From NCBI RefSeq assembly GCF_019059575.1, contig NW_024883381.1:31568-95567 (forward strand): 64,000 nucleotides of DNA, given 5' to 3'. The notes under the pieces are model-generated. The model saw only the letters and a list, made by a program, of their open reading frames with translations. It was not told where the DNA came from and did no database searches. Position numbers and translations under genes: made by a program. The stretch comes from Amphibalanus amphitrite. Taxonomy: Eukaryota > Arthropoda > Thecostraca > Balanomorpha > Balanidae. Below are positions 284 to 48,552 of this stretch, piece by piece. Each line of letters starts with the position of its first letter. Position 1 is the first letter of the stretch.

Positions 284-385
284 ATTTGAATGCTAGGATG
301 CATTGAAAAGATGAAGTTGTCTGATTTTATTACCATATATGGTCATCGCCCCGCCCACTCCAGCTGTTGATTGGCTAATCCAATT

Positions 386-700
386 TAAAGAGGCGGTGCT
401 GCATTAGTTTCAGCACGGAATCAGGTTGCGCCTTTTTACGACCTAAATTTCTCGTGCTCCGTCTGTTAAATAATTTGAAAGGAAAAATGTTATTTCAAAA
501 GATGTAGTTTCCGGCTATGTGTTCTAGTTTTGATATTGTTTTTAGACGGGCACAATTCACGTAAATTCAAGCAAGATTGTCTTATGTTATATACTTTAAT
601 TCATGCTTGTTTTGTATGAGTTAAACTTTCACAAGACAATAAATTCGGTGCTCTGTAAAATGAAATTTTGATACCTACGTCGAACACTCCGAACTCTACA
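386..700 (+). repeat. 5' LTR of the BEL/Pao element
   Basis: 315 bp, preceded by the target duplication CAATT and ending CTCTACA. It is identical to the downstream LTR except near base 638, where this copy has an AATAAA-like signal (AATAAATTC) and the other reads TATAAATTC. The left boundary is ambiguous by one base because a T is shared with the target site. I could not recognise a primer-binding site after 700. Confidence 0.92.
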
Positions 701-804
701 TAAGTCTAAAAACAATACAAGTCAAGTAACGTAGATTAGTAGTTTTATGGTCGTATAAGACGATTATAAGATAAAGTAACTTAAATTTCATAAGAGAATT
801 GAAG

Positions 805-2886
805 ATGGAAGCATACAACACGAAGACCAAGAAGGTGTTGAAAATTTTATTGCAAGAAAGGGGACTAAAAACAACAGGAACGAAAGACGACCTCATTAAA
901 AGACTCATCTCATCACACAAGACTTCACAAATGGACATTGAACCTGAAGATAGTGCGTCACAAATTTCAACGTCTTCGTCATCAAGTTTCATTAAAAATC
1001 AGCGAGCCGTCGACACGGCGAAAAGGGCGGAGCTAGAAGCACGATCGAGCATTCTTGAAGAAAGACGGCGTCTACTTGAGGAAGAGTTACGTCTAAAATT
1101 GCGACAAGAGCAATTAAACATTGAAGAAGAATTAGCAGCCATTCATGCCCGTGAAAAATATTTCGCTGCGAGTGATATAATGGAAAATACTGATGAAACA
1201 ACTCATTCACATCAAATTCAGGTTCCTGGCACATCTTCACAATTTGTTCACTCTGATGTTGGTCACAGCAAGACGTGCGGTGCGCAAATGTACGACATGG
1301 CAGAAACTATGTTACGACAACAACGAAGAAGTTCCCTACCGAAGACCGAAATAACGAAATTTAAGGGTGATCCCATGGAATACCCTATGTTTATCCGTTC
1401 ATTTATAAGCCGTATCGAAACCCAAACTGAGAACGACGCCGAAAGACTTTATTTCTTGCTTCAAAGCGTAACAGGAAAACCACATGAAATCGTGAAAGGA
1501 TATATGCACTTACAGCCAGACAGAGGCTACAAGGATGCCAGGGCGGCACTGGATCGCAAGTATGGCGACGAGCATCGCATTTCTTCTGCTTATGTTGATA
1601 AAATTCTCTCTTGGCCGCAGATGAAATCATTGGATGTTGACTGTTTGGAAGATTTTTCAATTCTAATTCGAAGCTGTAAAAATGCAATGGAATCTCTGGG
1701 CGCTCTCAGCGAGGTAAATCATCCTAGGAATCTTCAGAAAATCGTTGGCAAGTTACCATATCAGTTGCAAGAAAAATGGCGTCAGCTAGTGTTTGAAAGT
1801 TCGCAACAAAATATGAAGTCAGATTTTGGAGATATAGTTGAATTTGTGGAGCGGCAAGTGTGTATATGCAGCGACCCAGTGTTTGGAGTGAAAGAAATGA
1901 TGGATGCAAAACCAAGCCACGGAAAATCGTTCAAATCAACATTTTACACTGCAACCACAAATTCAGACGTGCGATGTTACGCATGTGACGAATGTCATAC
2001 AATTGAATCATGTCCTGTTCTACTTCAGATGGATATATCTGCAAGGATCGAGAAAATAAAGGAGAAACGACTTTGTTTTGCTTGTCTTCGTCCAAATCAT
2101 GTATCGAAACATTGTAGAAGGCGAATGCAATGTCGTCATTGTGACAAAAGGCATCCATCTCTACTGCACGTGGAATTCAAACCCGTCACCAGACCTTCCC
2201 TTCCGCCTCACCATGACAGTGTCAGTACCGATCCAAATTCAAGTACTCCACAAAACAAATTATGTGGTGGGACCAAGGCAGTCGCTTCAGGCACAGTTCT
2301 ACCAGTCTTGCCGGTACAATTAAGCGTCTCAGGCAAAGCCCCTGTCAAGACATATGCATTTTTGGATAACGGCAGTCAAAGTACATTCATAACGGAAGAG
2401 TTACGAAGTCAGTTGGGTCAAACTGGAGAAGAGACGCTGCTCACTATTACCACAGTAGAACATACAGCTAGCCCGGTTAAAAGTCGACTGGTAACGGGGT
2501 TACATGTAGCTGATGTCAACGGTAACAACTCTCTTCCGTTACCACCAGTATATACGATACCAACCATTCCAGTTGGAGACCAAGATGTAGCAAGAACAAG
2601 TTTGAAGAAACAGTGGTCTTATCTAGAAATTGAAATCCCAGAAGTAAAGGCGGATAAAATTGGAATATTAATAGGATGCGACTGCCCGAAAGCAATGGAG
2701 CCATGGGAGGTAATCCACAGCCAAAACGGTGGCCCTTACGCCTTGAAAACTTGCTTGGGCTGGACGGTGGTTGGCCCCAAGGTAATGTCCGAAGTCAGTT
2801 ACAATGCAGCAGACGTTAAAGTGAACACTGTACGATTGGAAACAGAAAAGTTACAAGAAATGATTTCAGCACTGATTCCGTGCTGA
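805..2886 (+). CDS. gag-pro: BEL/Pao gag-protease polyprotein with SAP-like N-terminus
   Basis: Structural gag and aspartic protease half of the retrotransposon, 693 aa from the ATG at 805. Residues 5-38 match a SAP-type DNA-binding motif (GLKTTGTKDDLIKRL). Residues 70-115 are a charged coiled coil. The DUF1759-like capsid region spans about 180-330. Cysteine/histidine knuckles lie at about 390-460 (CYACDEC, CFACLRPNH, CRHCDKRH). A DUF1758-type protease has its catalytic LDNGSQS near residue 519. The last residues and the stop come from the inverted LTR sequence that starts at 2872, so the frame is cut at the inversion breakpoint and does not reach pol. In related elements gag and pol form one long polyprotein. 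The domains are clear; the exact N-terminus is not. Confidence 0.9.
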   Translation: MEAYNTKTKKVLKILLQERGLKTTGTKDDLIKRLISSHKTSQMDIEPEDSASQISTSSSSSFIKNQRAVDTAKRAELEARSSILEERRRLLEEELRLKLRQEQLNIEEELAAIHAREKYFAASDIMENTDETTHSHQIQVPGTSSQFVHSDVGHSKTCGAQMYDMAETMLRQQRRSSLPKTEITKFKGDPMEYPMFIRSFISRIETQTENDAERLYFLLQSVTGKPHEIVKGYMHLQPDRGYKDARAALDRKYGDEHRISSAYVDKILSWPQMKSLDVDCLEDFSILIRSCKNAMESLGALSEVNHPRNLQKIVGKLPYQLQEKWRQLVFESSQQNMKSDFGDIVEFVERQVCICSDPVFGVKEMMDAKPSHGKSFKSTFYTATTNSDVRCYACDECHTIESCPVLLQMDISARIEKIKEKRLCFACLRPNHVSKHCRRRMQCRHCDKRHPSLLHVEFKPVTRPSLPPHHDSVSTDPNSSTPQNKLCGGTKAVASGTVLPVLPVQLSVSGKAPVKTYAFLDNGSQSTFITEELRSQLGQTGEETLLTITTVEHTASPVKSRLVTGLHVADVNGNNSLPLPPVYTIPTIPVGDQDVARTSLKKQWSYLEIEIPEVKADKIGILIGCDCPKAMEPWEVIHSQNGGPYALKTCLGWTVVGPKVMSEVSYNAADVKVNTVRLETEKLQEMISALIPC

Positions 2887-2932
2887 AACTAATGCAGCAC
2901 CGCCTCTTTACCCCCTCCCCCGTTTCAGCACG
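2872..2932. repeat. Left copy of a 61-bp inverted repeat bounding the flipped pol segment
   Basis: This is the reverse complement of 6333-6393. It contains, in minus-strand order, the polypurine tract (GGGGGAGGGGG on the minus strand) and the first 39 bases of the LTR. The integrase stop codon (2925-2927) lies inside it, so this is the natural 3' end of pol in its flipped position. Confidence 0.9.
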
Positions 2933-4136
2933 TGCTCGCGCCGTCTTCTGGTAAGAGGAGCACAAGCTTGCTGATCGGCCTTCTAAGAATGGAGGTGCTC
3001 GTCCTCACTTCTGCGACACGAACATTGCCCTTTGCGTCAGGGTACACGTTGATCACTCTTCCCATTTTCCATTCGTTGCGAGAAGAGTCTGCGTCTACCA
3101 GGAGAACCATGTCATTTTCACGCAAATTTCTCTGAGGCTGGATCCACTTTTGTCGTACTTGAAGTGAACTGACGTATTCCTTCTTCCAACGGCGCCAGAA
3201 TTCCGTCGCAAGGTACTGAACTAGTTTCCATCGCTTTCTTGAAAACGAGTCGGCTTCTGAGAAGATACCGGGTGGCAATGGCTGTGCCGAACGGTAGATG
3301 AGCAGATGGTTAGGTGTGAGCGCTTCCAAGTCCCTTGGGTCATCTGAGACAGGTGTGAGCGGGCGTCCGTTCAAAATCGCCTCTACCTCACACATGAAGG
3401 TGGATAAGCACTCATCCTCTAAAGTCTTTTGCTGCAGCAGAAAGTTCAATATTTTCCTCGTTTCGCGAATCAGGCGTTCCCATGTTCCTCCGTGGTGCGA
3501 GGCGCCCGGTGCGTTAAAAATCCATTTTACCTCTTTCTGCAGAAGTTCGTCTTCTATTTGCTGCTGATTCCAGTTGCGGATCTCTTCCTTCAGCTCCCGG
3601 CGGGCTCCCACGAAATTTGTGCCGTTGTCACATCTGATTATCCTTACTGCCCCTCGTCTGGCCATGAAACGACGCAACGCGTTTATGAAGGAATGAGTCG
3701 TCAAGGAGTGTACAACTTCCAGATGTACAGCGCGGATTTTTTGGCACACAAATATGACACCAAACCGTTTCACTATGGCTCTACCTCTTTTGACATAAAA
3801 AGGTCCGAATAAGTCGACTCCAGTGACCGCGAATGGCGTCAAGTCCGGAGTGACGCGGTCTTGCGGGAGATCAGCCATTTTCTGTGTTAAAGGACGGCCG
3901 TGTAGTCTGCGACAGAATACGCAACGTGACAGCACGCGGCGCACCGCAGCCATTCCGCGAATAATCCAGAACCGTTCCCTAATCACTGACAAGACATGGA
4001 GACGTCCACTGTGGCCGATCTTGCGATGTGTGTCTGAGATAATCAAATCAGTCACATGAGACCTTGCTGGCAGAATCGCTGGGTGTGATGCTTCTGAGGC
4101 GTAAGCATGACTGAGTCGACCACCGACCCGTAGCAC
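2925..4136 (-). CDS. BEL/Pao integrase fragment (inverted)
   Basis: About 403 codons open, no ATG at the front because this is the C-terminal part of a polyprotein. The zinc-binding HHCC motif is visible (H37, H42, C72, C75), as is the DDE catalytic triad (D108 in GVDLFGPF, D170 in CDNGTNF, E220 in GTWERL). A C-terminal DUF5641-like region follows (ENDMVLLVD). It would join the cDNA to the host chromosome. It is separated from the RT frame by a tandem 5-bp duplication at 4158-4167, which shifts the frame and creates a stop. Catalytic residues are intact, but no translation route remains in this arrangement. Confidence 0.88.
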   Translation of the reverse strand: MLRVGGRLSHAYASEASHPAILPARSHVTDLIISDTHRKIGHSGRLHVLSVIRERFWIIRGMAAVRRVLSRCVFCRRLHGRPLTQKMADLPQDRVTPDLTPFAVTGVDLFGPFYVKRGRAIVKRFGVIFVCQKIRAVHLEVVHSLTTHSFINALRRFMARRGAVRIIRCDNGTNFVGARRELKEEIRNWNQQQIEDELLQKEVKWIFNAPGASHHGGTWERLIRETRKILNFLLQQKTLEDECLSTFMCEVEAILNGRPLTPVSDDPRDLEALTPNHLLIYRSAQPLPPGIFSEADSFSRKRWKLVQYLATEFWRRWKKEYVSSLQVRQKWIQPQRNLRENDMVLLVDADSSRNEWKMGRVINVYPDAKGNVRVAEVRTSTSILRRPISKLVLLLPEDGASTC

Positions 4137-4156
4137 ACCGCTCTCACAGACTGGAT

Positions 4157-6385
4157 CTAGCCTAGCCGGTAGATATTACTCTTCCTGGTTATTTTCTTGT
4201 GCTCTGGAGAATGAAGAACGGCCAACTCTTCTGAAAAGGATCCTGCTTGAACGTACTTGACAATGCACATTTCAGCACTTTGAAGTTCTTCGACAGACAA
4301 GTCACTCGCTATGCCTCCATTGGTGACGTTTCTGCTCTCTGGCTTCTCTTCTTTCTTGATACGATCACGCAAGACTTGTTTCAATCGCATATAGTAAGCT
4401 ACAGCTCTTTTAAGGCGGTACCAGTTGGAATAATGTTGCAGTAGCTTGTCAGTTGGCTGTGTTTCGGTGGACGTCGCTGACACCAGTTTTGGCATTTTTA
4501 CTTCAGGGTCACCATCCATCACTGTTTCAAGTTCTTTGAATGGCTGCTCTGGCCACTTATCTTCAGGAAGCGTCAGGAACTCTGGCCCACGAACCCACAT
4601 CGACCCATTCAAAAACTTTTCCACCGTTGTGCTTCGTGAGGCTTCATCAGCAGGATTCACCTTTGAAGTAACGTATTTCCACTGGTTCTCGTCGCTGTGT
4701 TCAAGAATGTAACCAATGCGATTTGCTACATAAATATGAAATCTACTTGTTTTGTTCTTGATATATCGAAGAACAGTTGTACTATCGGTCCAGAAAACTG
4801 TCGAGTCGACAACTGTTTGGAGTTCTTCTTTCACAACTAAGTCAAGGCGCACTGCTAAAGTCGCAGCAGTGAGCTCCATTCGAGGAATGGTGACACTTTT
4901 CAGCGGCGCCACGCGCGCCTTTCCAATGAGAAAAGAGCAGTGGATTTTCCCGTTATCATCCACTTGTCGGAGGTATGATACCGCGCCGTAACCAGCTTGG
5001 CTAGCATCTGCGAAGTGATGTATTTGTGTGGATAAGACACGACCAAAATCTCCTGGTTTCATGCACCGCTCTACACTGAAGAGTTCCAGCTGGCAAAGGG
5101 AGGAGTGCCACCGAAGCCATTTTTGTTGCAGATGCATGGGAATAATGTCATCCCAGCCAAGATTCAATGTACATAGTTCTTGAAGGATCAATTTTGGCAC
5201 CATCAAAACGGGAGCAGCGATTCCCAATGGGTCAAAAAATGAGCTTGTTGCCGAAAGAATCCCACGTCTTGTGAGTGGTTTTGACTGGATTTTCACCTTG
5301 AATCTGAACCTATCTTGCTGAAAGTCCCATATAACGCCGAGTGCACGCTCCGCCGTTGTGTCACACCCCAGCTCGGCTCCTTTCATATTCTCCGTTTTGT
5401 CATGGTCTGGTAACGATTCTGTCACTTCTCGATGATTGCTAACGAACTTGGTGAGATTAAATCCCCCCATGGCGCACATTTGCTTGAGTTCGCGGACCAG
5501 TGTCACTGCCTTATTTATGCTTTCCACCGACTTCAGACAGTCATCAATATAAAAAGAATATTGTATAGTATTCGCCGCATCCGGACTGAACGTGTGATTG
5601 TCTTGTGCACATTTTTGTAGTGCGAAGTTGGCACAACCCGGAGACGATACACTGCCAAAAATGTGTTTTTTCATGACAAAGTCCTCCAATTCCCTTGTTG
5701 TATCACCCTCTGGCCACCATAGGAATCTGTAGAAATTGACGTCGGTTGATGGTACTTGTACCTGATAAAACATTTCTTGAATATCCGCCATAAATGCGAC
5801 CCGTTCCTTCCTGAACCTGATGAGAACACCGATCAAAGTATTTGACAAATTTGGACCCTGTAGAAGCTGATCATTCAAGGATGTTCCGCCGTACCTTGCC
5901 GAACCGTCAAAAACCACTCTTGTTTTCTCGGGCTTAGCCGGGTGCTGAACCGAATGATGGGGAATATACCACATTTTGCCTTCTTCTGGAGGATATGCCA
6001 TTGACGCTGGCTCGGCGTGACCCTTTTCTAATAGCCCGTTCATGTATTGAGTGTAACGAATGTGGAGGGCTGGGTCTCTTTCCAGTCTCTTTTTGAGACC
6101 TATGGCTCGTCTCTCTGCTAGGGCTCTGTTATTTGGAAGCCGAACGCTTTCAGCCTTAAACGGAAGGGCTATTTCATAACTACCGTTCTTCAATTGCACA
6201 CTCCCTTCTACCTTGGTCTTCCAAAGTTTATCTTCTTGTGACATGTTTTCATACCCCGTCATCGTAGCAGTCTTATCTGTGAAATCATTGTTGAATATTG
6301 TGATCATCATTGATGACGTGCACGGAATCAATCGTGCTGAAACGGGGGAGGGGGTAAAGAGGCGGTGCTGCATTAGTTTCAGCAC
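4157..6385 (-). CDS. BEL/Pao reverse transcriptase-RNase H fragment (inverted)
   Basis: 742 open codons. Reverse transcriptase: catalytic aspartate near 201 (MADIQEMFYQV) and FYIDD at 278-282. RNase H: FADAS near 458, RMEL near 502, TDST near 533 and a VNPADEASR segment near 576. The first 18 or so codons are translation of the 61-bp inverted repeat, not native pol. The frame opens with a non-ATG codon, as expected for an internal polyprotein piece. It ends in a premature stop produced by the 5-bp tandem duplication at 4158-4167. In a canonical element this block follows the protease on the same strand; here it faces it. Confidence 0.9.
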   Translation of the reverse strand: MLKLMQHRLFTPSPVSARLIPCTSSMMITIFNNDFTDKTATMTGYENMSQEDKLWKTKVEGSVQLKNGSYEIALPFKAESVRLPNNRALAERRAIGLKKRLERDPALHIRYTQYMNGLLEKGHAEPASMAYPPEEGKMWYIPHHSVQHPAKPEKTRVVFDGSARYGGTSLNDQLLQGPNLSNTLIGVLIRFRKERVAFMADIQEMFYQVQVPSTDVNFYRFLWWPEGDTTRELEDFVMKKHIFGSVSSPGCANFALQKCAQDNHTFSPDAANTIQYSFYIDDCLKSVESINKAVTLVRELKQMCAMGGFNLTKFVSNHREVTESLPDHDKTENMKGAELGCDTTAERALGVIWDFQQDRFRFKVKIQSKPLTRRGILSATSSFFDPLGIAAPVLMVPKLILQELCTLNLGWDDIIPMHLQQKWLRWHSSLCQLELFSVERCMKPGDFGRVLSTQIHHFADASQAGYGAVSYLRQVDDNGKIHCSFLIGKARVAPLKSVTIPRMELTAATLAVRLDLVVKEELQTVVDSTVFWTDSTTVLRYIKNKTSRFHIYVANRIGYILEHSDENQWKYVTSKVNPADEASRSTTVEKFLNGSMWVRGPEFLTLPEDKWPEQPFKELETVMDGDPEVKMPKLVSATSTETQPTDKLLQHYSNWYRLKRAVAYYMRLKQVLRDRIKKEEKPESRNVTNGGIASDLSVEELQSAEMCIVKYVQAGSFSEELAVLHSPEHKKITRKSNIYRLG

Positions 6386-6393
6386 GGAATCAG
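6333..6393. repeat. Right copy of the 61-bp inverted repeat (polypurine tract plus LTR start)
   Basis: Exact partner of 2872-2932. It holds the polypurine tract at about 6342-6354 and the first 39 bases of the 3' LTR in + orientation, placed directly against the 5' end of the flipped RT region. The element therefore carries this edge sequence twice, once in each orientation. Confidence 0.9.
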
Positions 6394-6669
6394 GTTGCGC
6401 CTTTTTACGACCTAAATTTCTCGTGCTCCGTCTGTTAAATAATTTGAAAGGAAAAATGTTATTTCAAAAGATGTAGTTTCCGGCTATGTGTTCTAGTTTT
6501 GATATTGTTTTTAGACGGGCACAATTCACGTAAATTCAAGCAAGATTGTCTTATGTTATATACTTTAATTCATGCTTGTTTTGTATGAGTTAAACTTTCA
6601 CAAGACTATAAATTCGGTGCTCTGTAAAATGAAATTTTGATACCTACGTCGAACACTCCGAACTCTACA
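6355..6669 (+). repeat. 3' LTR of the BEL/Pao element
   Basis: 315 bp, preceded by a purine-rich tract and followed by the target duplication CAATT. One base difference from the 5' LTR was seen by eye (near 6608), so divergence is about 0.3%. Confidence 0.92.
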
Positions 6670-6997
6670 CAATTTTTGTTTGGCTCCTCGTAGTTTCCCC
6701 AACTGAGAGACGGAGCCTAAGTTCAGTTGGGGAAACTATGAGGAGCCAAACAAAAATTGGATCAGCCAATCAACGGCTAGAGTGGGTGGAGTGATGACCA
6801 TGTATGGTCATAAAATCTGACAGCATCATCTTTTCAATGCATCCTAGCATTCAAATCCTAGCCATTCGGATAATTTAATCGGAGTTAACTGAAAAAAGCA
6901 GCTCGACAACTTCGATTGACATTCAATTTGAGGAGGGGATAATCCCCCCAACCTCACTCCAGGGAGGGACGGCATCCCCCCCATCCCCCCTCGTGGC

Positions 6998-10500: not shown

Positions 10501-12073
10501 TGCTCAGCATTTAGGTGCCAGATTCAGAAAAAAGAGTAAGGCGTACCGATGAATAGGTGCCAGAAACAGCTAATTAAGGTCATTTTCCATGATTGGTGCT
10601 GGTATCCACCAAATAGGTGCTGAGGACCAATTTTGGGGCGAGTCAGCTTTTAGGTGCCAGAAATAGCTTTTCTGGGACGCAATTAAATGGCGTCCTAAGA
10701 TAATTGATCAGCCATAATGAACTTTTCATTCGGAATAATCTCATGCGTAGCCGTAGGTACTCGTCGGAGGCAAGCTCAACATATTTTATTTTGTCTCTAG
10801 CGCCCTGTGTCTTAATGCTGATGTTCCGTGCACAAGCGTGATACTGGATAGTGGATAACTGGATAACGTTTTGATGTTGTGTTCCGTGTCTGAGGGGCGT
10901 GCTGAGCTACTGCTGTTTGTTTGACAGGCGTCCCGTGTCACGGGTACACGGGAATACTCTAAGTGTTCGTCCCACGTCTCATGCTCCCGCTGGATACCTA
11001 CTGCTTGTTTTTCCTCTGTCTCTGGCACTCACTGGATGACCCGTTGTTTGTATTACCCGTGTCTTAAGTGTCGCTTCGCTTGATAACCTAATGTTTGTCT
11101 CACGTCTTGTTCTCGCGCTGGATAACCTGCTGATTTGTCTCACACCTCAGGTACGCACTACATAACCTGTTTGTTCGTCCCATACTCCAGGTACGCGCTG
11201 GATAACCTGAGTTCTTCTTCCTTCACATGGCCGCGCCGGATAACATGTTTGTTTGTTTTACACCCCAGGTACGCGCTGGATAACCTATATTTGTTTCCCC
11301 AATTTGTCTCACACCTCAGGTACGCACTACATAACCTGTTTGTTTTCTCACACCCCAGGTACGCGCTGGATAACCTTTGTGTTTCCTTCATACCCCAGGT
11401 ACGCGCTGGATAACCTCGTATTCGGTAAGGTGGACGTCACGCGACACCCGGACGCCGCCCAGAAGTACCGCATCAGCACGTCCAGCTTCAGCCGCCAGCT
11501 GCCGACCGTGGTGCTGTTCGATGGGGGCCAGGAGGTCACCCGGCGACCCGGCTTTGACGAGAAGGGTCGCCTGGTGCCCTTCACCTTCACACAGGTAGGC
11601 GGACAGCCGCGTGGCTCCAACATCTGGTCAAGGGGGTTCGTTTTGTGTTCTGTGAAATGGTCAGTATCGTGAAAATTGCAAGTGATAATTGCATTGCATT
11701 GCAACATTTTTATGTGGAATGCCAAAGTGATGTTCGTAAAAATGTTGATAGCAGTATCGGCATTCGGCAGTACCAAAATAACGACCATATTTTTCTTGCT
11801 CTTCACACATTATCATGCTTACATGGAGGGCCGCTCTTGTATAACTATCATCTAAGACCAAACTGACAGTAATATAGCCAGCACTTATCAGCGCAGATCA
11901 GCCACGACTGGCATTCACTTCTCGCACCGCGTCCGGCGCTCGTCTCTTACATCTGTCACCGCTCTGCCCGACAGGATAACGTGGTGGCGGCCTTCGACCT
12001 CAACAACGTCTACCAGAAGTGCAAGGACGAGCTACCGCGCTTCCGCAAAATCGAGGCCAAGAAGACCAAGTAG
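7527..12073 (+). CDS. TMX2: TMX2-like thioredoxin-related transmembrane protein, 5 coding exons
   Basis: Exons 7527-7667, 7966-8146, 9052-9235, 11399-11594, 11975-12073; all introns are GT-AG and the phases join into 266 aa. The N-terminus holds a hydrophobic segment (HVLNVLLACSFLVFKL) and two more lie in exon 2 (LLFFVAVVIW, LNLVLWFY), followed by a thioredoxin-fold domain (exons 3-4: VFGKVDV, KYRISTSSFSRQLPTVVLF, cis-proline region QLPT). The C-terminus KKTK is a dilysine ER-retrieval signal. TMX2 is an ER, partly mitochondria-contact, membrane protein. The active-site position reads ATWFPSS, with no cysteine, whereas human TMX2 keeps one Cys (SNDC); a disulfide-exchange role is therefore unlikely here. 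The start was chosen as the first ATG of an exon with good coding content and a following donor. Length is slightly below human TMX2 (296 aa), mainly at the N-terminus and the C-terminal tail. Confidence 0.93.
9385..10685. repeat. Degenerate inverted-repeat element in TMX2 intron 3
   Basis: A cluster of short units around TTTCTGGCACCTAA at 9385-9495 reappears in reverse complement (TTAGGTGCCAGAAATAGC and variants) at about 10505-10685. Each arm contains two to four imperfect copies and a shared CCCCAAAAT motif. The arms flank about 1 kb without coding signal. This looks like an old foldback element, but the ends are eroded and no target duplication was found. Confidence 0.55.
11100..11398 (+). 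repeat. 39-40 bp minisatellite of splice-acceptor-like units before TMX2 exon 4
   Basis: CAG|GTACGCGCTGG or CAG|GTACGCACTAC occurs with AG ending at 11150, 11190, 11268, 11319, 11358 and at the true acceptor 11398. Spacings are 40, 78, 51, 39 and 40 bp. Each unit has a pyrimidine tract, an AG, and a copy of the first six to seven codons of exon 4 (Y-A-L-D-N-L). Degenerate relatives (GGATAACCT-like) reach back to about 10850. The unit between 11190 and 11268 lacks the AG. Confidence 0.9.
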
Positions 12074-14024: not shown

Positions 14025-17000
14025 ATGGCGGAGGGAGGAGTCAAACCAAATATATCACAGCAAGCACTTGTGAAAAATGAGATCCCAGATGTGAAATTCA
14101 TTTCAACTCCATCTGGGGAAGTTACTCCAACAAGAGCATCATCAGCTGCCTCAGGAGGAAGAAGAATAACAGCCCAGCAAGGCATATCTGTTGCTATTCT
14201 CTGTTTTATAAATCTGATCAATTACATGGACCGGTTCACAGTGGCTGGTGAGTGCAATTGCTAGGTGCAGCAGCTCTGTAAACATTTTGTATTTGTCAAT
14301 CTCTACACACAAATTCAGGTATAATGCAGAGCTGGATCACCAACTCTGGACCTTTTCATCTCAATTGCTATCTCAGTTTTTTTTTTTGCAATGAGACTAA
14401 ATCTCAAATCATGTATTTTTAACCATGTTTTGCTGCAGATAATTGCTAAGCTCAAACCTTGACATGCTTTTATTTTGTGTTTTCAGGCATCCTGACTGAG
14501 ATCCAGGACCACTATGGGGTCAACGACTCAATGGCTGGACTGCTGCAGACTGTGTTCATAGTCTCCTACATGATATTTGCTCCTCTGTTTGGGTTCCTCG
14601 GTGACCGGTACAACAGGAAGTGGATCATGGCTCTGGGGGTGTTCATCTGGTCACTGACTACACTGCTTGGATCATTTATGGAGGTAAGCACAAACCAGTA
14701 ACTCTTTGAGCAACCTAAGACTGAGTTAGGAATCACATCCTCATTTCACAGTCAATTTCCAGCCACTTCAGCTGCTAATCTGTAGCCAACCCCCAAAATA
14801 GCTCCTGAAATGGGTGCTGGCCAGTGGTCAACAGTTTGTTGATGTTTCTAATTTGGCTTCAGGATGAAACATAAGTTGATGCCATCCGTTACTCGGCAGT
14901 CGGCCACGGTCGCTGCCGGGCGACCTGCCATCCTGATCCGTCCTGACGCTGGTCCATCCCGGCTGGTGGTCGCTATTCAAAACCGAGATCCGGGGTCACC
15001 CCAGATTTGGCTGGAACGAAGGCATTTCATAACGCTCATTAGTATAGTACTTATTCGGTTTAGGGTCCATGCAAAACACGTGGATGCTACGGTCAGTTTT
15101 CGGGTCTATCTGACGGTTGTGCAACCATTCGGCTGTGCTGGATCGCCAGTGAATTGCATACGGGAGGTCAGTTGCAGGTTCAGGTCAGCCTCGGGTCACA
15201 CCGGACCAGGTTGGGTCACGCCCCCTCCCCATTCTTCATCGCGGTTCACGGCGCGCGGCGCGTAAAACGCCGGCCGGCGCGCGGCGATCACACGACAGCC
15301 GGCGGCGCCGGCCTCGCCGACCAATCAGAGGCCGCCGCTAGAGTCACGCCAGCGGTGACGTCACGGTGTGGGCGGGGCCGACGCCGATTGATCGCCGGCC
15401 ACGCGGCACTTGGCGCAAGCCGTACGGCCGCGGAAAACTGGGACGGCACCGTGTCTGAGGAAAGGGGAGGGGCGGGCGACCTTCCCACGTGGGTTGGGCC
15501 GGCGCCTACGGTCTTCTGATGGCTCAGGAGCGAAACCCCGCGACTAAACAGGGCGAGAATGATTCAGGAGGATCGATCATTGAATCATACAATTGGATGC
15601 AATTCGACGACTCTGCCGTTTGGATATGTTCTTTTTTTATATATTATATCCAGTAGCTGTCGGCCTCACAACTATTGATATGTTCAATGTATTTCGAATC
15701 ATTCCATTGCATGGTTTAGTATTTGATTCGATCACACACACAAAAGACATGGTACACCTAGCCCGTCCCCCCCCCCCCCCACACACACACGTACACGCAC
15801 ACATGCACAAACACTGCCGCAGTAGACTGATGAGTGCAGAGCAGCCAGCGCGTCACAATTTTCACGGATATGACAGAAGGCAAAAGCGCTAGGCAGCAAG
15901 GTGGCGAAGAAACTCAGCGTGTGTTCCAGAGCTAGTGGTGGAGGGTGGGAGGTGGTTCCAGGAGGTTGCCGCTCGGTAGGAAAAAGCTCGTCTCGACATT
16001 GATAAGCGATAATTTGGTAACTCTAATGCACCCGACAGCGTGGAACGTGTGGCGCGCGCAGACACAGCCGCCCGTGTTGTGAACAAAGTGCGTAATGCCG
16101 CGGGAGCGAGCGGGTCCTTCAGCGCTCTGAAAACACGAATGTTGTCGCGATAGGTGACTAAATCCGTGATTTTGGGCCAGCCCAGTGCAGACAACACGGG
16201 GGAAATGTGATCACGGTGTTTCGCCCCAGATACGATTCTAGCTGCGAAATTAATGACTTTCTGCACCCGCTTGAGGTGACAACCTACAGCCCCGCCCCAG
16301 ACTGAGAGGCAGTAAATGATGTGGGGGAAGACATGACATTGAATGAGAAGTTTCAAAACATCAGCTGAGAGGTGATGTCGAATTTTGTAGAGAGAAATAA
16401 GGACGGCATTGTATTTTTTGACGACACTGGAAATGTGCTTTTCCCAGGATAGGCTGGGATCAATGGTTACACCTAGCATCTTCACTTGAGAAGATGGCTT
16501 GAGTACATGTCCCGGTAGGTTTAAATGGAAAGCTGAGGCTTTCTTCAGGTTCTGGGGGGTGCTAGAAATGAGAAGGCTAGTCTTCGATGGGTTCATTTTC
16601 AAAGAGTTTGACGTGAAGTAGTTGAGAACAGCACTGAGGCTTTCCTCCTGTCTCGCTTTTAGGGTAGACAGAGATGCGGGGTCGGTGGAATCTAGTAACT
16701 GTGTGTCGTCGGCATAAGAAACCAAGCGTCCGTGGGGAACATATGCTGGAAGATCATTTGTGAAGATGCTGAAGAGGATGGGACCAACTAAGGAGCCCTG
16801 TGGAACACCGTGAGACAGAGGCAAAGATAGAGACCCGCCTCTCACTACCTGTTGCCGACCAGACAGGTAGCTTCGGAACCAATTCGGATCTATTCCATAC
16901 CAGCAGAGTTTCGTAAGGAGGACGTCGTGATCAACGCTATCAAAAGCGCGGCTCAAGTCAATTGAAGTTACAGCTACGATGTCACCCTCGTCGATGCGCC

Positions 17001-20000
17001 GCGTCATCCACTCGATAGCATCGGTCAAAGCATCCTCCGTCGAGTGAGCAGCTCTATATGCATATTGCGAATTGACCAACAGGTGATTAGTAGCAAGAAA
17101 GGACGACAGCTGCATACAAACAACTTTTTCACATAACTTCGAGAGCACCGACAGGAGAGAGATGGGCCGGAAATTACTCGGGTTATCTATGTCGCCGGAC
17201 TTATGAAGTGGTACGACGGTCGCGAGTTTCCATGATAATGGAAAATGACATGATATTATCGATGCATTCACGATATGCAGCAAGTGTGGACCAATCACAG
17301 GAAAACATGCTCTGATTGCGTGTAGTGGCACACCGTCATGCCCCACTGCTCTAGATGCAGACAACTTTCGCAACGCCAAAGACAGTTCTGATAGTGTAGC
17401 CGGCTTCAGGCGCAGACCCGCTGACGTCACACGCGGCGGCCTTGGCGGGAGCCGAGAGGGACCGCTGACGGCCAGCTCCGCAGCAATTTTCGATCCGACG
17501 GTGGCGAAATGACGATTGAACTCATCTGCCTGTTCTGTCGGCATCCCACATATGCCTTTTTTACCCCCACACGCAGGACGCACCGCAAATTCAGATATGT
17601 TGCGCCAAAAAGATCGTCGATCAGATAACAAGTGAGCTGACAAAAAGTCGCGTTTACTTTTTAATAGACGCCCTTTCACAAGGTTCCGCAATCTCCGGTA
17701 CACATCTCTATCATCGACGGATCGAGAACGTTGCCATGTACGGAAAGCCGTATCTCTTTCACGCATGAGTTGTTTAAGCTCTTCATTATCCTCTATCCAG
17801 GGGCACCGTGGTCGACGAGGGGTTACAGTTTTTAGGGGGCAGTGAGTGTCCACAACCTTCCACCACAGATTTAGAAAAGCGGCTAATTTCTTGTCCACGC
17901 TATCCGCGCTGTACATTTCACCCCAGTCTGATAGTAGCAAAGATAGGCAAACGGCATCCCAATTCACTTTCCGCCAGGGACGTGCCTTGAACGGGGACGG
18001 CCGACGGCTCTGACGACGGAGCTGTGCTCGAACGATGATTGTGAGGTGATCGGCGATTTGGTCAGATGATGTTAGGACTGAAGCGTTTTGATCCGGAACA
18101 TTGCTGATGATGTGATCGATGAGTGAAGTAGAGGGTTCTAGATGTGTTGGCTCGGTGACTAGTTGAGTTAGACCCAGTTCGTTCAAGGCGGCTTTGTACT
18201 GACGTACTCCAGGAGCGTCATGTTGCAATAAATTTATATTTGTGTCGCCCAAGCAAAAAACTGGCTTTCCGTAGCCGAGCGCGTGTTTTAGCTGATCTTG
18301 GAGGTCGTCGACAGCGCTGGCCACCGATGTGGATGGTGCTCGGTACACCACGCCGACTGTGACCGAGCGAAGACCCCTGCCGCTGATGCTGAGCCAGAGA
18401 GTCTCGCAAGGCCCGGCTGCAGGGATTGGCAGAACACTAGTAGTCAGCTCCTCACGATGTATGATAGCCACACCACCTCCACGAGCAGTACCTCTCTGCC
18501 CCGTTTCGGGTTGGGATAGCCGATCTCTTCTTATGATCTGATATCCGGGGAAAGCTAAGATTCTGCTCTGAACGGGTTTTGAGAGCCATGTTTCCGTCAC
18601 GCATAAAACGTCCAAATCTTGTTGCGTTAACAGTTGATTGATTTCATTAAGCTTCGGTACGATAGAGCGAACGTTTGAATGACCGATATTCAGAGTGTGC
18701 CGGGGTAGACGTCGGTTGGTTTCTCCCAGTGAAGGGTGGCGCTCTACACGGCGGGCCCCACTGGCCCCAACGCCTTCCTGCCGGCTGCTGTCCGCTGGCA
18801 GGCCCGGCCCAGCCCGGGGTTCAGCCGTCCGGTCTCGTCCTGCATGGACGAGTCCGGGGCTGCCTGTTAGGGGGATCAGGACACGGCCGCGGCTCGGGCA
18901 CCGCTCGTGCTCTATGGCACGTCTGCGGCGCGCCTGGACGTGGCGGCCGGCCCGTCTCCCCCTGCAGTGCCTCCTTACTCCGCCGCTGGGTGAGAGATTA
19001 ATGGGTCTGTCCATGAGGGATTCTCCCCTGGTCCGAGTGTCCGACGACCGTCGGAGTCGACGGCGGTGGAACGTGCGGCGGTAGACGACGACCGAGCCGT
19101 GTGATTGGCTGGTGGAGCTCTTCTAAAACCGGTAGAATTTTGGTCGAACGAAACGAGGGCCATGGCAAGGCTTTCGATTGTCATGAAGAGTAAAACAAAA
19201 CTTGAATATTATTCGCAAGCCCACAAGATGAGGGACGAGCGAAAAATCACCACGCATTGCCGAAGCTAGCACTGTTCGACATCGCTGATACTTGAAAGCA
19301 CACTGGCACTATTTCCGCGGAAAAAAAACTGGTAAAACGACAGAGCGCACGCAGGGGCGGCTGCCAGCGAGCGGCGCTCAGCCCGGTCAACTGCCCTGCT
19401 CTAGTTAGTAAGAGCTTGAGCAACCTTCCCGGTCAAAAATGTTGGGATGTCATCCGTTCCGTCGAGTTTCAACCGCTTCCCTTCGAGCCCATCATCCTGC
19501 GTGCTCCGGGCAGGTGACCGCCGTGTGAACGAACTCGGACCGGCGCGGCGCCGGACCGGGGCCGGCCAGTTCCGATGGGAAGGGGATGGGGAGGATGTGC
19601 GTCGGTGTCCGGTTTGCTCCGGCACGTGATCGCACGCCTGGTCGATGGATGCTCGATAGTCCGCTCGATGCCGGGTGGGATATGTCGATCGCCTGCTGCG
19701 ATCTGGATTGAAGCTGTTGCGTTTGGTGACTGTTGCAGACTGGACTTCGATCTTTCTGTTGGTCCTACTCTTTTTGCAAGGTTTTTTTTTAAGGTAGCTG
19801 CTCTTCGCTAAATATGATGAAATCGTTCGTCACTGATTCGTTACAAGTTCGTCACAAGTATCCCTGATATCTCCATCAAATTTTGCGGAGTACTTTTGCG
19901 AAGCGGAGCAACAGCTTTGCTCGGATCATCCTATTCCGTGTTGCCTGTCTGCATAGGTGTGGTGTCCTGCTTTGGGATTGATCGCGCTTCTAAACCTGCA

Positions 20001-45137: not shown

Positions 45138-46252
45138 ATGGCGTCCGTGGCCGCGTGGCTGCCGTTCGCCCGCGCGGCGGCCATCGGCTGGGTACCGATC
45201 GCCAACCAGCCGCTGCCGGAGCCGCCCGTGGCGCGCGACCGGCGCCGCGCCGATGATGAGAAGCTCATCATCAACGTGTCCGGTAGGAAATTCGAGACTT
45301 GGCGCAACACGGTGGAAAAATACCCGGACTCGCTGCTCGGCTCAAACGAGCGTGACTTTTTCTATGAGGAGGACACGAAAGAGTATTTTTTCGACCGGGA
45401 TCCAGACATTTTCCGGCATATCCTTAATTATTACCGCACGGGGAAGCTGCACTACCCGAAACACGAGTGTCTGACCAGCTACGACGAGGAGCTGGCCTTT
45501 TTCGGAATCATTCCAGACGTCATCGGAGACTGCTGCTATGAGGACTATCGAGACAGGAAACGTGAGAACGCCGAACGCCTTCTCGACGACAAAATGTCAG
45601 AGAACGGCGAGGGCACGCTCGTGCCGCTGGCCAGCCTGCGCGAGAAGATGTGGCGCGCCTTCGAGAACCCCCACACCTCGACGGCGGCTCTGGTGTTCTA
45701 CTATGTCACCGGCTTCTTCATCGCCGTCTCCGTGCTGGCTAACGTAGCGGAAACGGTCTCCTGTGGAGAGGTGCCTGGCAAGGCAGAGCCGCTGCCGTGC
45801 GGCGAGCGCTACGAGGTCATCTTCTTCTGCCTAGACACGGCATGCGTGATGATCTTCACGGCCGAGTACCTGCTGCGCCTGTACGCTGCGCCCGACCGCT
45901 GCAAGTTCGTGCGCAGCGTGATGAGCATCATCGACGTGGTGGCCATCCTGCCCTACTACATCGGACTGGGCATCACCGATAACGACGACGTGTCGGGCGC
46001 GTTCGTCACGCTCCGGGTGTTCCGCGTCTGTCGGATCTTCAAGTTCTCGCGTCATTCCCAGGGGCTGCGCATCCTCGGCTACACGCTCAAGTCGTGCGCC
46101 AAGGAGCTGGGCTTCCTGGTGTTCTCGCTCGCCATGGCCATCATCATTTTCGCCACCGTCATGTTCTATGCCGAGAAGAAGGTGAAGGGCTCGACGTTCA
46201 CGTCCATTCCGGCGTCCTTCTGGTACACGATTGTTACCATGACGACACTTGG
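45138..46252 (+). CDS. Shal: Shal/Kv4 voltage-gated potassium channel, first coding exon
   Basis: 371 codons plus two bases, from the Kv4 hallmark N-terminus [18 protein letters not shown] to TTLG just before the GYGD selectivity filter, where the donor GG|GTGAGT lies. The T1 tetramerisation domain (41-140) carries the Kv4 zinc motif HX5CX20CC (H105, C111, C132, C133). S1 is about 184-206, S2 224-246, S3 257-276. The S4 sensor ([18 protein letters not shown], about 291-308) has regularly spaced Arg/Lys, and S5 is about 324-345. Channels of this type give the A-type current of neurons and muscle. Vertebrate KCND genes also end exon 1 at this site. The N-terminus binds KChIP-type partners in vertebrates. 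Missing here: selectivity filter, S6 and C-terminus. Confidence 0.96.
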
Positions 46253-48552
46253 GTGAGTACCTCAATGTGCGACCACATATCGCTTTTTATCACGATTTGC
46301 CGTCTTTGGATACCAGTGAATTAGGAATTACTGTGGGAGGATAGGTAGCGCAAAAACGACAATAGTTGCATAGCACCTAGTACCTTGATAAGTTGGCATT
46401 GCATGCAACTTGGTGAGCCCTATTACCTAAAGTCTAATAAGTTTTATTATCGGGATTCATAATTCTTTAATCGCCCTTTGGGATGTTTATTTTGCATGTT
46501 TACGTATAACCTATTATATGCTGTATTACATAACGTATGCTTATAATTTCACAGAAACAAGAATGAAAATAGTTTAGAGATAAGGTAAAATGCAAGTACG
46601 GAAATGCCACGTTTTTATGAGGCTCTACGCAAAGATAACCGATGATCATTTTATCATTATTTTTTAATCTAAGCTTCATGAACATACCTAGCTAATAAGT
46701 GTACATGTTTTCACGAACAGTTGATGGCAATGAATTGGCATTTAATATATATTAAAGACTCGATTCATTATCAGTTCTACTCCGTATAATTACAACAAAA
46801 GAAATTACAATAATATATCGTATAGCAGAATAGCCCAGCATGCAACGCATCACCAGGTTGTCGATTATCATATCAAAACATAATTTAGCTGCCGAAATCA
46901 CTTTTTTCTGAAAAAAAAAATGTTTGGTGCAAAACGAACGACAGCCGTACCTTTACGCCTTACATTTTATGGATTCATGGCTTTATTTTCCTCGATCGTC
47001 TAATTAAAGCCGAATATATGTTACTATGAGGCATGTGTTTTACCAACGGATATATAATAACGACTGCATGTCCTTTTCAAAGACCGCATGCCGTATGGTT
47101 GTACCGGCATAAAAATGTGCGTCTTTTAATTTCTATTATAAGTGAAGCAGGTCGGTAAATTGGGGACTGTCTCAGCTCTTCTTTCTGGAGCGAAATCTAG
47201 GAAAGTATGTCTGGTAGCAGAAGTGGCCTGTGTTAGATAACTACGAGCAGCCGGATTGGCAGGCCCGGGTAAACTGGCTCACTAACTGGTTTGCATTAAA
47301 AGCAGCAGACATTCTGGCTTATCTTAATTAACTTTTACTTCCCTGTTTGGAATTTGTGAGTAGTTGAGCCGAATTATCTTGCATATATAACTCTATATAA
47401 CTCTTTGTAGGAAAGAGTTGCTTTGTTTTGGAAATACTTACTGAAATGTGCTACAATTCCATTCCATTTCCAGTCGAGCAAATATGATGCTCTCAAAAGT
47501 TGGAGCTTTGAGACAATGTTTCAGTCAGCATTTATCACGTTAGCTTCCAAAGAATTCATGCTGATAAACTGATAAAAAGTTTCCAGATTGCTCACGAGGC
47601 CGCAAACATCTGATTTTACGTTAGACTGTGCCGATGGCATTTCTCGAAATCACTTCGTCGAATTCCGAGCGGATATTGTGTCCATGTTCAGCAGGGCATA
47701 AGTTTGAAAATGCTGCCAAATAGCCACTGAGAGGCTGAGCGCCTAGTGACAAGAGCAGGCTGGCGCTTCTGTCAGGTCTGGTGGCTGCAGGCCCGAAAGG
47801 CAAGCATATTTCTCAGGAACGGCTCTGTTTGGGAAATTGTCCGTGGCGTTAAATGTGTGAGACCGCCGGGTTCGCTGCAGGCGCCCAGTTGATCGCGCTA
47901 AGCTATGCGCCGGAGCGGAGCCGCCAGCAACTTGCAGATCTCAGCGGTTCAGTTTCAGCAAAATGGCCTCGGCCCGGCTGTAAATGGCCGCAGTTTTAGC
48001 CGGGTCGGTGCGAGTGGAGGCGCTATTTTGGAGTGCGGACACCCATTAGCGCCGTTCGTCGTGTACCTGGGGGAGGACGGCGAACTCAGTGCACTGACCC
48101 ACACTGTTTGACGGTGATTTCCAACGGCTTGCCGGTGCTTACAAACCACTATCGGGCACAGGGTCTCGATGTTGACACGCCGGTCAATATCTGTGTTCAT
48201 AACAAACGGAGTCACGTGTTCACTAATGCCAGGCTGTCCAGTGCCAATCTGTGTACTCCGACCTGAGGCTAAGCAATCACTAAAGGGTTCATGGGAGGCA
48301 CACAAATGGTGACAGTCCTGAGTCCCCAACGTAGCTCAGCGCCGAAGGCAATGACATTGACAATTGATGATGCAATGAGATGAGAACTTTAAGATAAATA
48401 AATTTTTGACAACATATAAAAATTGACCACGTATGTCGTATGCTAAGTGTAGACTTCAAAGCTAAATCCGTTTAATGATTTTGCTTTTAATAGTAAAATT
48501 GATGAATGCCAGTAGCAATGTACTGTCAACATTCTGCGGAAGCTAACTAATT

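Follow-up and report, generated by a model that had tools for sequence, protein, structure and literature searches.

A young BEL/Pao element of Amphibalanus amphitrite with its pol half reversed between direct LTRs, and a candidate self-complementary primer site in its family

Inverted proviruses of HIV-1 are among the closest described counterparts of the element reported here. Internal inversions are listed there among the provirus defects that are partly attributed to template switching during reverse transcription (available parts of PMC8264403 and PMC9278108). In the text available from PMC8264403, inverted proviruses amount to 21% or 2.4% depending on the pipeline, with none among the near-full-length ones of its 691-provirus database set, and the corresponding part of PMC9278108 gives two classes of inversion of 1.3% with n = 1 each. 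In yeast, both foldback insertions of ~5-34 bp at DNA breaks and inversions within extrachromosomal single-stranded DNA are documented (PMC11724301, available part). In the retrotransposon Tf1, the primer site is paired with the first 11 bases of the RNA, which RNase H then cleaves behind base 11 (PMC7175516, available part); the accessible portion of PMC6934838 names eight self-priming elements, and BEL is not among the names.

The stretch analyzed (C1884:31568-95567, 64,000 nucleotides, hereafter the window) was compared with the 807.6-Mb assembly of 2644 contigs. Like the HIV-1 inverted proviruses, the element found in the window is integrated, has LTRs, and carries an internal block in reverse; unlike those somatic viral genomes, it belongs to an animal BEL/Pao family and was read from a genome assembly, and both of its joints could be resolved against collinear copies, which distinguishes it from the HIV-1 cases. 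The short templated inverted fillers at the joints resemble the yeast foldback insertions, except that all the pieces derive from one retroelement and that the product carries an integrase-type target duplication. As in Tf1, the leader is predicted to pair with the element's own transcribed LTR over 11 nt (compare PMC7175516, available part). Whereas Tf1 and Tf2 are Ty3/gypsy elements (same source), the window family is BEL/Pao by its domains, and to judge from its sequence it would work like the Tf1-type self-primers without being a member of Ty3/gypsy.

Table 1. Parts of the rearranged element and its flanks (window positions; LTR numbering from the first base of the LTR)
Feature	Position	Strand	Remark
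Left target-site duplication, CAATT	381..385		
5' LTR	386..700	+	
LTR stretch complementary to the leader (LTR 149-162)	534..547	+	core 537-547, 11 nt
Candidate self-complementary primer-binding site	704..717	+	core 704-714; 3 nt past the LTR
Gag-protease part of the gag-pol frame (SAP, DUF1759)	775..2864	+	native sequence
Joint 1 filler, 7 nt	2865..2871		probably copied by fold-back from the LTR next to it
Inverted repeat, left arm	2872..2932	-	LTR 1-39 and polypurine tract (PPT), reversed
Integrase frame (H2C2, weak rve, DUF5641)	2925..4175	-	reversed
Extra 5 nt, apparent tandem duplication	4163..4167	-	shifts the pol frame; only in the window copy among 8 aligned
RT-RNase H part (weak RVT_1, Peptidase_A17)	4157..6311	-	native sequence, reversed
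Joint 2 filler, 21 nt	6312..6332		includes a copy of LTR 28-38 (6320-6330)
Inverted repeat, right arm	6333..6393	+	11-bp hairpin stem 6333-6343/6376-6386, PPT 6344-6354 inside
3' LTR	6355..6669	+	
Right target-site duplication, CAATT	6670..6674		

The element (386-6669; Table 1) is young, and this copy of it is defective. Its LTRs are direct, 315 bp each, and differ at 1 position. Since a Pao-type Peptidase_A17 domain (PF05380, E = 1e-45) is present together with DUF1759 (PF03564, E = 3.5e-8) and DUF5641 (PF18701, E = 1.2e-29), we assign the family to BEL/Pao, of which the window copy is a rearranged member; its RVT_1 and rve matches were both under Pfam's cut-off. The window copy departs from the single-orientation order gag-PR-RT-RH-INT in that pol is reversed. 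Direct LTRs with a short target duplication, a BEL/Pao trait, are retained, the duplication measuring 5 bp in the window copy and in the five collinear copies that were read. The open frames cover 775-2886 on the plus strand for gag-protease and 4157-6463 on the minus strand for RT/Peptidase_A17. The first-pass annotation of this locus, made from its letters alone, had described a young BEL/Pao element whose pol half, with RT-RNase H-integrase on the minus strand, is flipped between direct LTRs and bounded by a 61-bp inverted repeat containing the PPT and the first 39 bp of the LTR. That description holds in full, the two 61-nt arms being 100% identical.

The element has inserted into a palindromic interspersed repeat, for which 459 candidate places were obtained and 40 scored; 11 paralogues were fetched and six of them read. 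The uninterrupted site with a single CAATT is present in L054 and L056 (two of the six), while L053, L055, and L057 have diverged at the CAATT site and L052 gave no match. Since L054 and L056 keep the site with one CAATT, the flanking CAATT duplication, which had also been annotated at first pass, is real. The palindrome of the target, now split by the element, comprises 284-385 with 6670-6856 and has arms of 103 nt at 89% and an inner hairpin of 37 nt.

We then compared the window copy with its relatives in the assembly. A search with a gag piece returned at least eight family places, plus C2445 (79%) and a fragment on C569 (73%), and an RT piece likewise returned at least eight, plus C1018 and C2445 (76-77%). 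When the strands of gag and pol were compared, one of the eight copies found, the window copy, was flipped (these counts are lower bounds). The other seven (on C201, C746, C216, C187, and C803, and two on C2097) are all collinear with gag and pol continuous, and relative to them it is the block made up of pol, PPT, and LTR 1-39 that is reversed in the window copy. The five collinear copies read all have different target duplications (TGAAT, ATCCT, GGGAC, CCCTA, and TGGTG). The nearest relative of the window copy, on C201, differs from it by 6 substitutions in gag-pro and 9 in pol, and the other collinear copies by 13-15 and 14-19, respectively; the plus-strand copy on C2097 was compared in gag-pro as two parts, with 11 and 1 substitutions. 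Private to the window copy are 2 substitutions in gag-pro, 5 in pol, and the 5 extra nt in pol. A single frame of 1821 aa was found in four of the five copies scanned, the exception being the one on C201.

The joints of the window copy were read against the C201 copy as the collinear reference. At joint 1, gag matches the reference to 2864, and the 7-nt filler is followed by LTR 39 to 1, reversed; at joint 2, native pol ends at 6311, and after the 21-nt filler the sequence resumes at 6333, which is 22 nt before the LTR. The flipped block thus overlaps its neighbors at both ends: 6 bp (AATGAT) shared with the gag piece recur on either side of the gag/pol break, and 61 bp shared with the PPT-LTR piece recur on either side of the PPT/LTR break. 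The fillers can be read as copies of adjoining ends, which fits joint 1 well and joint 2 in part. The joint 1 filler forms a hairpin with the adjacent LTR (z = -4.09, with 1 of 200 shuffles as good), and the reverse complement of its 7-mer occurs within the adjoining 40 nt, which is true of 0.45% of random 7-mers from the element; an 11-mer spanning this filler is found in pol too and may have been its template instead. In the joint 2 filler, the first 5 nt fold back on the pol end, and a copy of LTR 28-38 follows; folding at this joint is moderate (z = -1.56, with 18 of 200 shuffles as good), and 9-mers of the filler are also present elsewhere in the element.

It is in this second filler that an 11-mer singled out in the first-pass annotation, GCACGGAATCA (6320-6330 on the plus strand), is located. 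The stretch exists as annotated, but it is not pol sequence. In each of the seven collinear copies gag/pol is continuous and lacks it, which removes the proposed 11-bp microhomology between pol and LTR as the cause of a strand switch. Its 11-nt match in the 61-bp arm, at LTR 28-38, lies beside the break of joint 1. No such match to the arm was seen in 5000 21-mers sampled from the element outside both joints, compared with 51 of 5000 when the pool included the left arm. Since the joint 2 filler copies LTR 28-38 from beside the joint 1 break, both joints are likely to stem from one episode. As single-stranded DNA, the 61-nt arm forms a hairpin whose 11-bp stem encloses the PPT (z = -3.87 for one strand and -5.09 for the other), and the 61-bp overlap starts at the base of this stem and ends 7 nt beyond its other base. 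In the sister family, the PPT stretch folds at the level of shuffled sequence (z = -0.27), and we therefore do not claim conservation of the hairpin.

A second rearranged insertion of the same family is found on C2097, where a composite (L027:1783 to L028:4467) consists, in order, of a minus-strand copy, an inverted LTR fragment (149-315), a plus-strand copy, and reversed fragments of pol and gag. Its left boundary reads AGGGTCA and its right side resumes with GGTCAGGTGAGG; given that paralogues L068, L069, and L074 have the empty site AGGGTCAGGTGAGG, the outer duplication is GGTCA. On the right flank, the alignments of 9 of the 11 paralogues begin at L028:4467 or 4468, the end of the composite, and those of L064 and L065, which have a different reading here, at 4474; for L066, L067, and L070, a text match for the site returned nothing. 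The 14-nt complementarity between leader and LTR is where the leader of the minus-strand copy meets LTR 149-315, and the inverted LTR piece ends with TAA and 11 nt of leader, followed by filler. The plus-strand copy, whose 3' LTR is cut and stops at 81, is flanked by TGAGG on both sides and may be a later nested insertion. Between the two copies there is 1 substitution in gag-pro and there are 2 in pol, and they are therefore not one read copied twice. The right end of the composite is not an LTR end, and more than one event may be contained in it. Judging from its single outer duplication, the composite probably inserted already rearranged.

We propose, with a probability of roughly 0.6, that the flip in the window copy arose when overlapping, unfinished pieces of cDNA were joined before integration. 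Pieces of cDNA that meet at a plus-strand start may overlap. During or just after reverse transcription, unfinished double-stranded cDNA would have lain in overlapping pieces that met at the PPT, the start of plus-strand synthesis. The 3' ends of the pol block, to which the polarity of the fold-backs points, would then have folded back, been extended, and been joined to wrong partners, either by end-jumping of reverse transcriptase or by host end joining. The rearranged molecule would finally have been integrated by integrase through its intact LTR ends, giving rise to the CAATT duplication. Rearrangement before integration, which had already been suggested at first pass, is the better reading because the C2097 composite has inverted pieces within one target duplication and because the joints in the window straddle the PPT. 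The window copy by itself gives no indication that the flip preceded the insertion. Several further points speak against this reading: fillers of the fold-back kind are just as characteristic of break repair in chromosomes, the joint 1 filler has a second possible template in pol, joint 2 folds no better than many shuffles, the rearranged form was found at one place, and the support from C2097 is messy (a right end that is not an LTR end, and a cut LTR in the inner plus-strand copy). The flipped copy suggests that even badly rearranged BEL/Pao cDNAs can still insert cleanly, and its joints, when set against collinear copies that are nearly identical, would record how this happened.

The main rival to this proposal, which we consider appreciably less probable, is that a collinear element was inserted and its pol block was turned around afterwards, within the chromosome, when breaks at gag/pol (6-nt stagger) and at PPT/LTR (61-nt stagger) were repaired with inversion and templated fillers. 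Such a flip would leave the LTRs and the target duplication looking identical; the fillers fit break repair (PMC11724301, available part), and filled staggered breaks could account for the 6-bp and 61-bp inverted duplications. It would, however, require both breaks to fall within one young element, one of them straddling the PPT, and a stagger of 61 nt is long; the inverted pieces inside one target duplication in the sibling insertion on C2097 also argue against it. An artefact of assembly or sequencing at the inverted repeats is very unlikely. The repeat is perfect and the analysis was made on the assembled sequence, but filler bases are present at both joints, and the joint 2 pattern, found at one place only with up to two mismatches, is not what wrongly joining existing sequence would produce; the 61-bp arms are moreover short relative to long reads, if long reads were used. 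Self-integration, in which an LTR end of the cDNA attacked the element's own gag/pol region, had been raised at first pass, and the AATGAT repeat at the gag/pol break does resemble a target duplication. Since one joint falls at LTR position 39 and the other 22 nt short of the LTR, with fillers, and neither is at an LTR end, we reject this explanation as largely refuted. A heritable lineage replicating with antisense pol is scarcely credible and is rejected on copy counts: its LTRs, leader, and PPT are as in relatives and long open frames remain, but the pol frame is shifted, one of eight copies found is flipped, and each joint, sought in the genome as the first-pass annotation had advised in anticipation of further copies, was seen at the window only (lower bounds, joint 2 with up to two mismatches), so that neither family places nor joint searches gave any sign of multiplication.

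The leader of the family points to a candidate for self-priming of the Tf1 type. In the window family, the LTR is followed by TAA and then GTCTAAAAACAATA, the 14-nt complement of which lies at LTR 149-162. When this one LTR was shuffled 3000 times with dinucleotides preserved, no shuffle reached a run of 14 and one reached 13; among 138 internal 40-mers compared with the LTR, 137 had runs of at most 10, and the remaining one, with a run of 30, was the reversed LTR piece at joint 1. In the sister family (C2445), the leader keeps TAAGTCTAAAAACA and then diverges, the LTR keeps TGTTTTTAGAC, and 11 nt pair. Stretches of similar length elsewhere in the LTRs of the two families are also kept, and the LTR side alone is therefore weak evidence. 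The pattern of the LTR/leader joint (at most one mismatch) was found at 11 places, of which 10 are joints of the window and sister families; the match on C77 was counted as chance, there being no LTR visible beside it. C1018, which has a 3' LTR and no second LTR found nearby, offers no readable leader and was left out of the leader counts. An insert of the sister family on C788 (C788:93560-94110) consists of one LTR, TAA, and 22 nt complementary to its own LTR, followed by further bases that end as the LTR ends, with CTAAC on both flanks; it looks like the outcome of strong-stop DNA synthesis that copied a primer taken from the element's own RNA.

No TGG was seen by eye close 3' of the LTR, and ARAGORN found no tRNA genes in the 64-kb window. 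Among the papers listed in literature searches, titles and opening abstracts yielded no report of self-priming in BEL/Pao, which is not proof of novelty, and the accessible parts of two BEL/Pao papers (PMC3118150 and PMC554778) do not mention PBS, primer binding, priming, or tRNA. We tentatively suggest, as a possibility short of an even chance, that in this BEL/Pao lineage a fragment of the element's own RNA primes reverse transcription and that the same self-complementarity leads cDNA ends to misanneal, repeatedly yielding inverted and composite cDNAs that integrate. If so, such misannealing would have left its fossils in the C2097 composite and the C788 insert, and the window copy would be a product of the same sloppy process. 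Confirmation of the leader as a primer site would show that self-priming is not confined to Ty3/gypsy elements, and it would be relevant to the proposed late origin of tRNA priming (PMC3601003, available part).

Outside the element, the window contains a 1077-aa open frame with endonuclease and reverse transcriptase domains (15889-19122, minus strand), probably a non-LTR retrotransposon; part of the coding sequence of a Shal-type (KCND, Kv4) potassium channel gene (45138-46253, plus strand); and a 74-nt repeat in five diverged copies (11095-11416).
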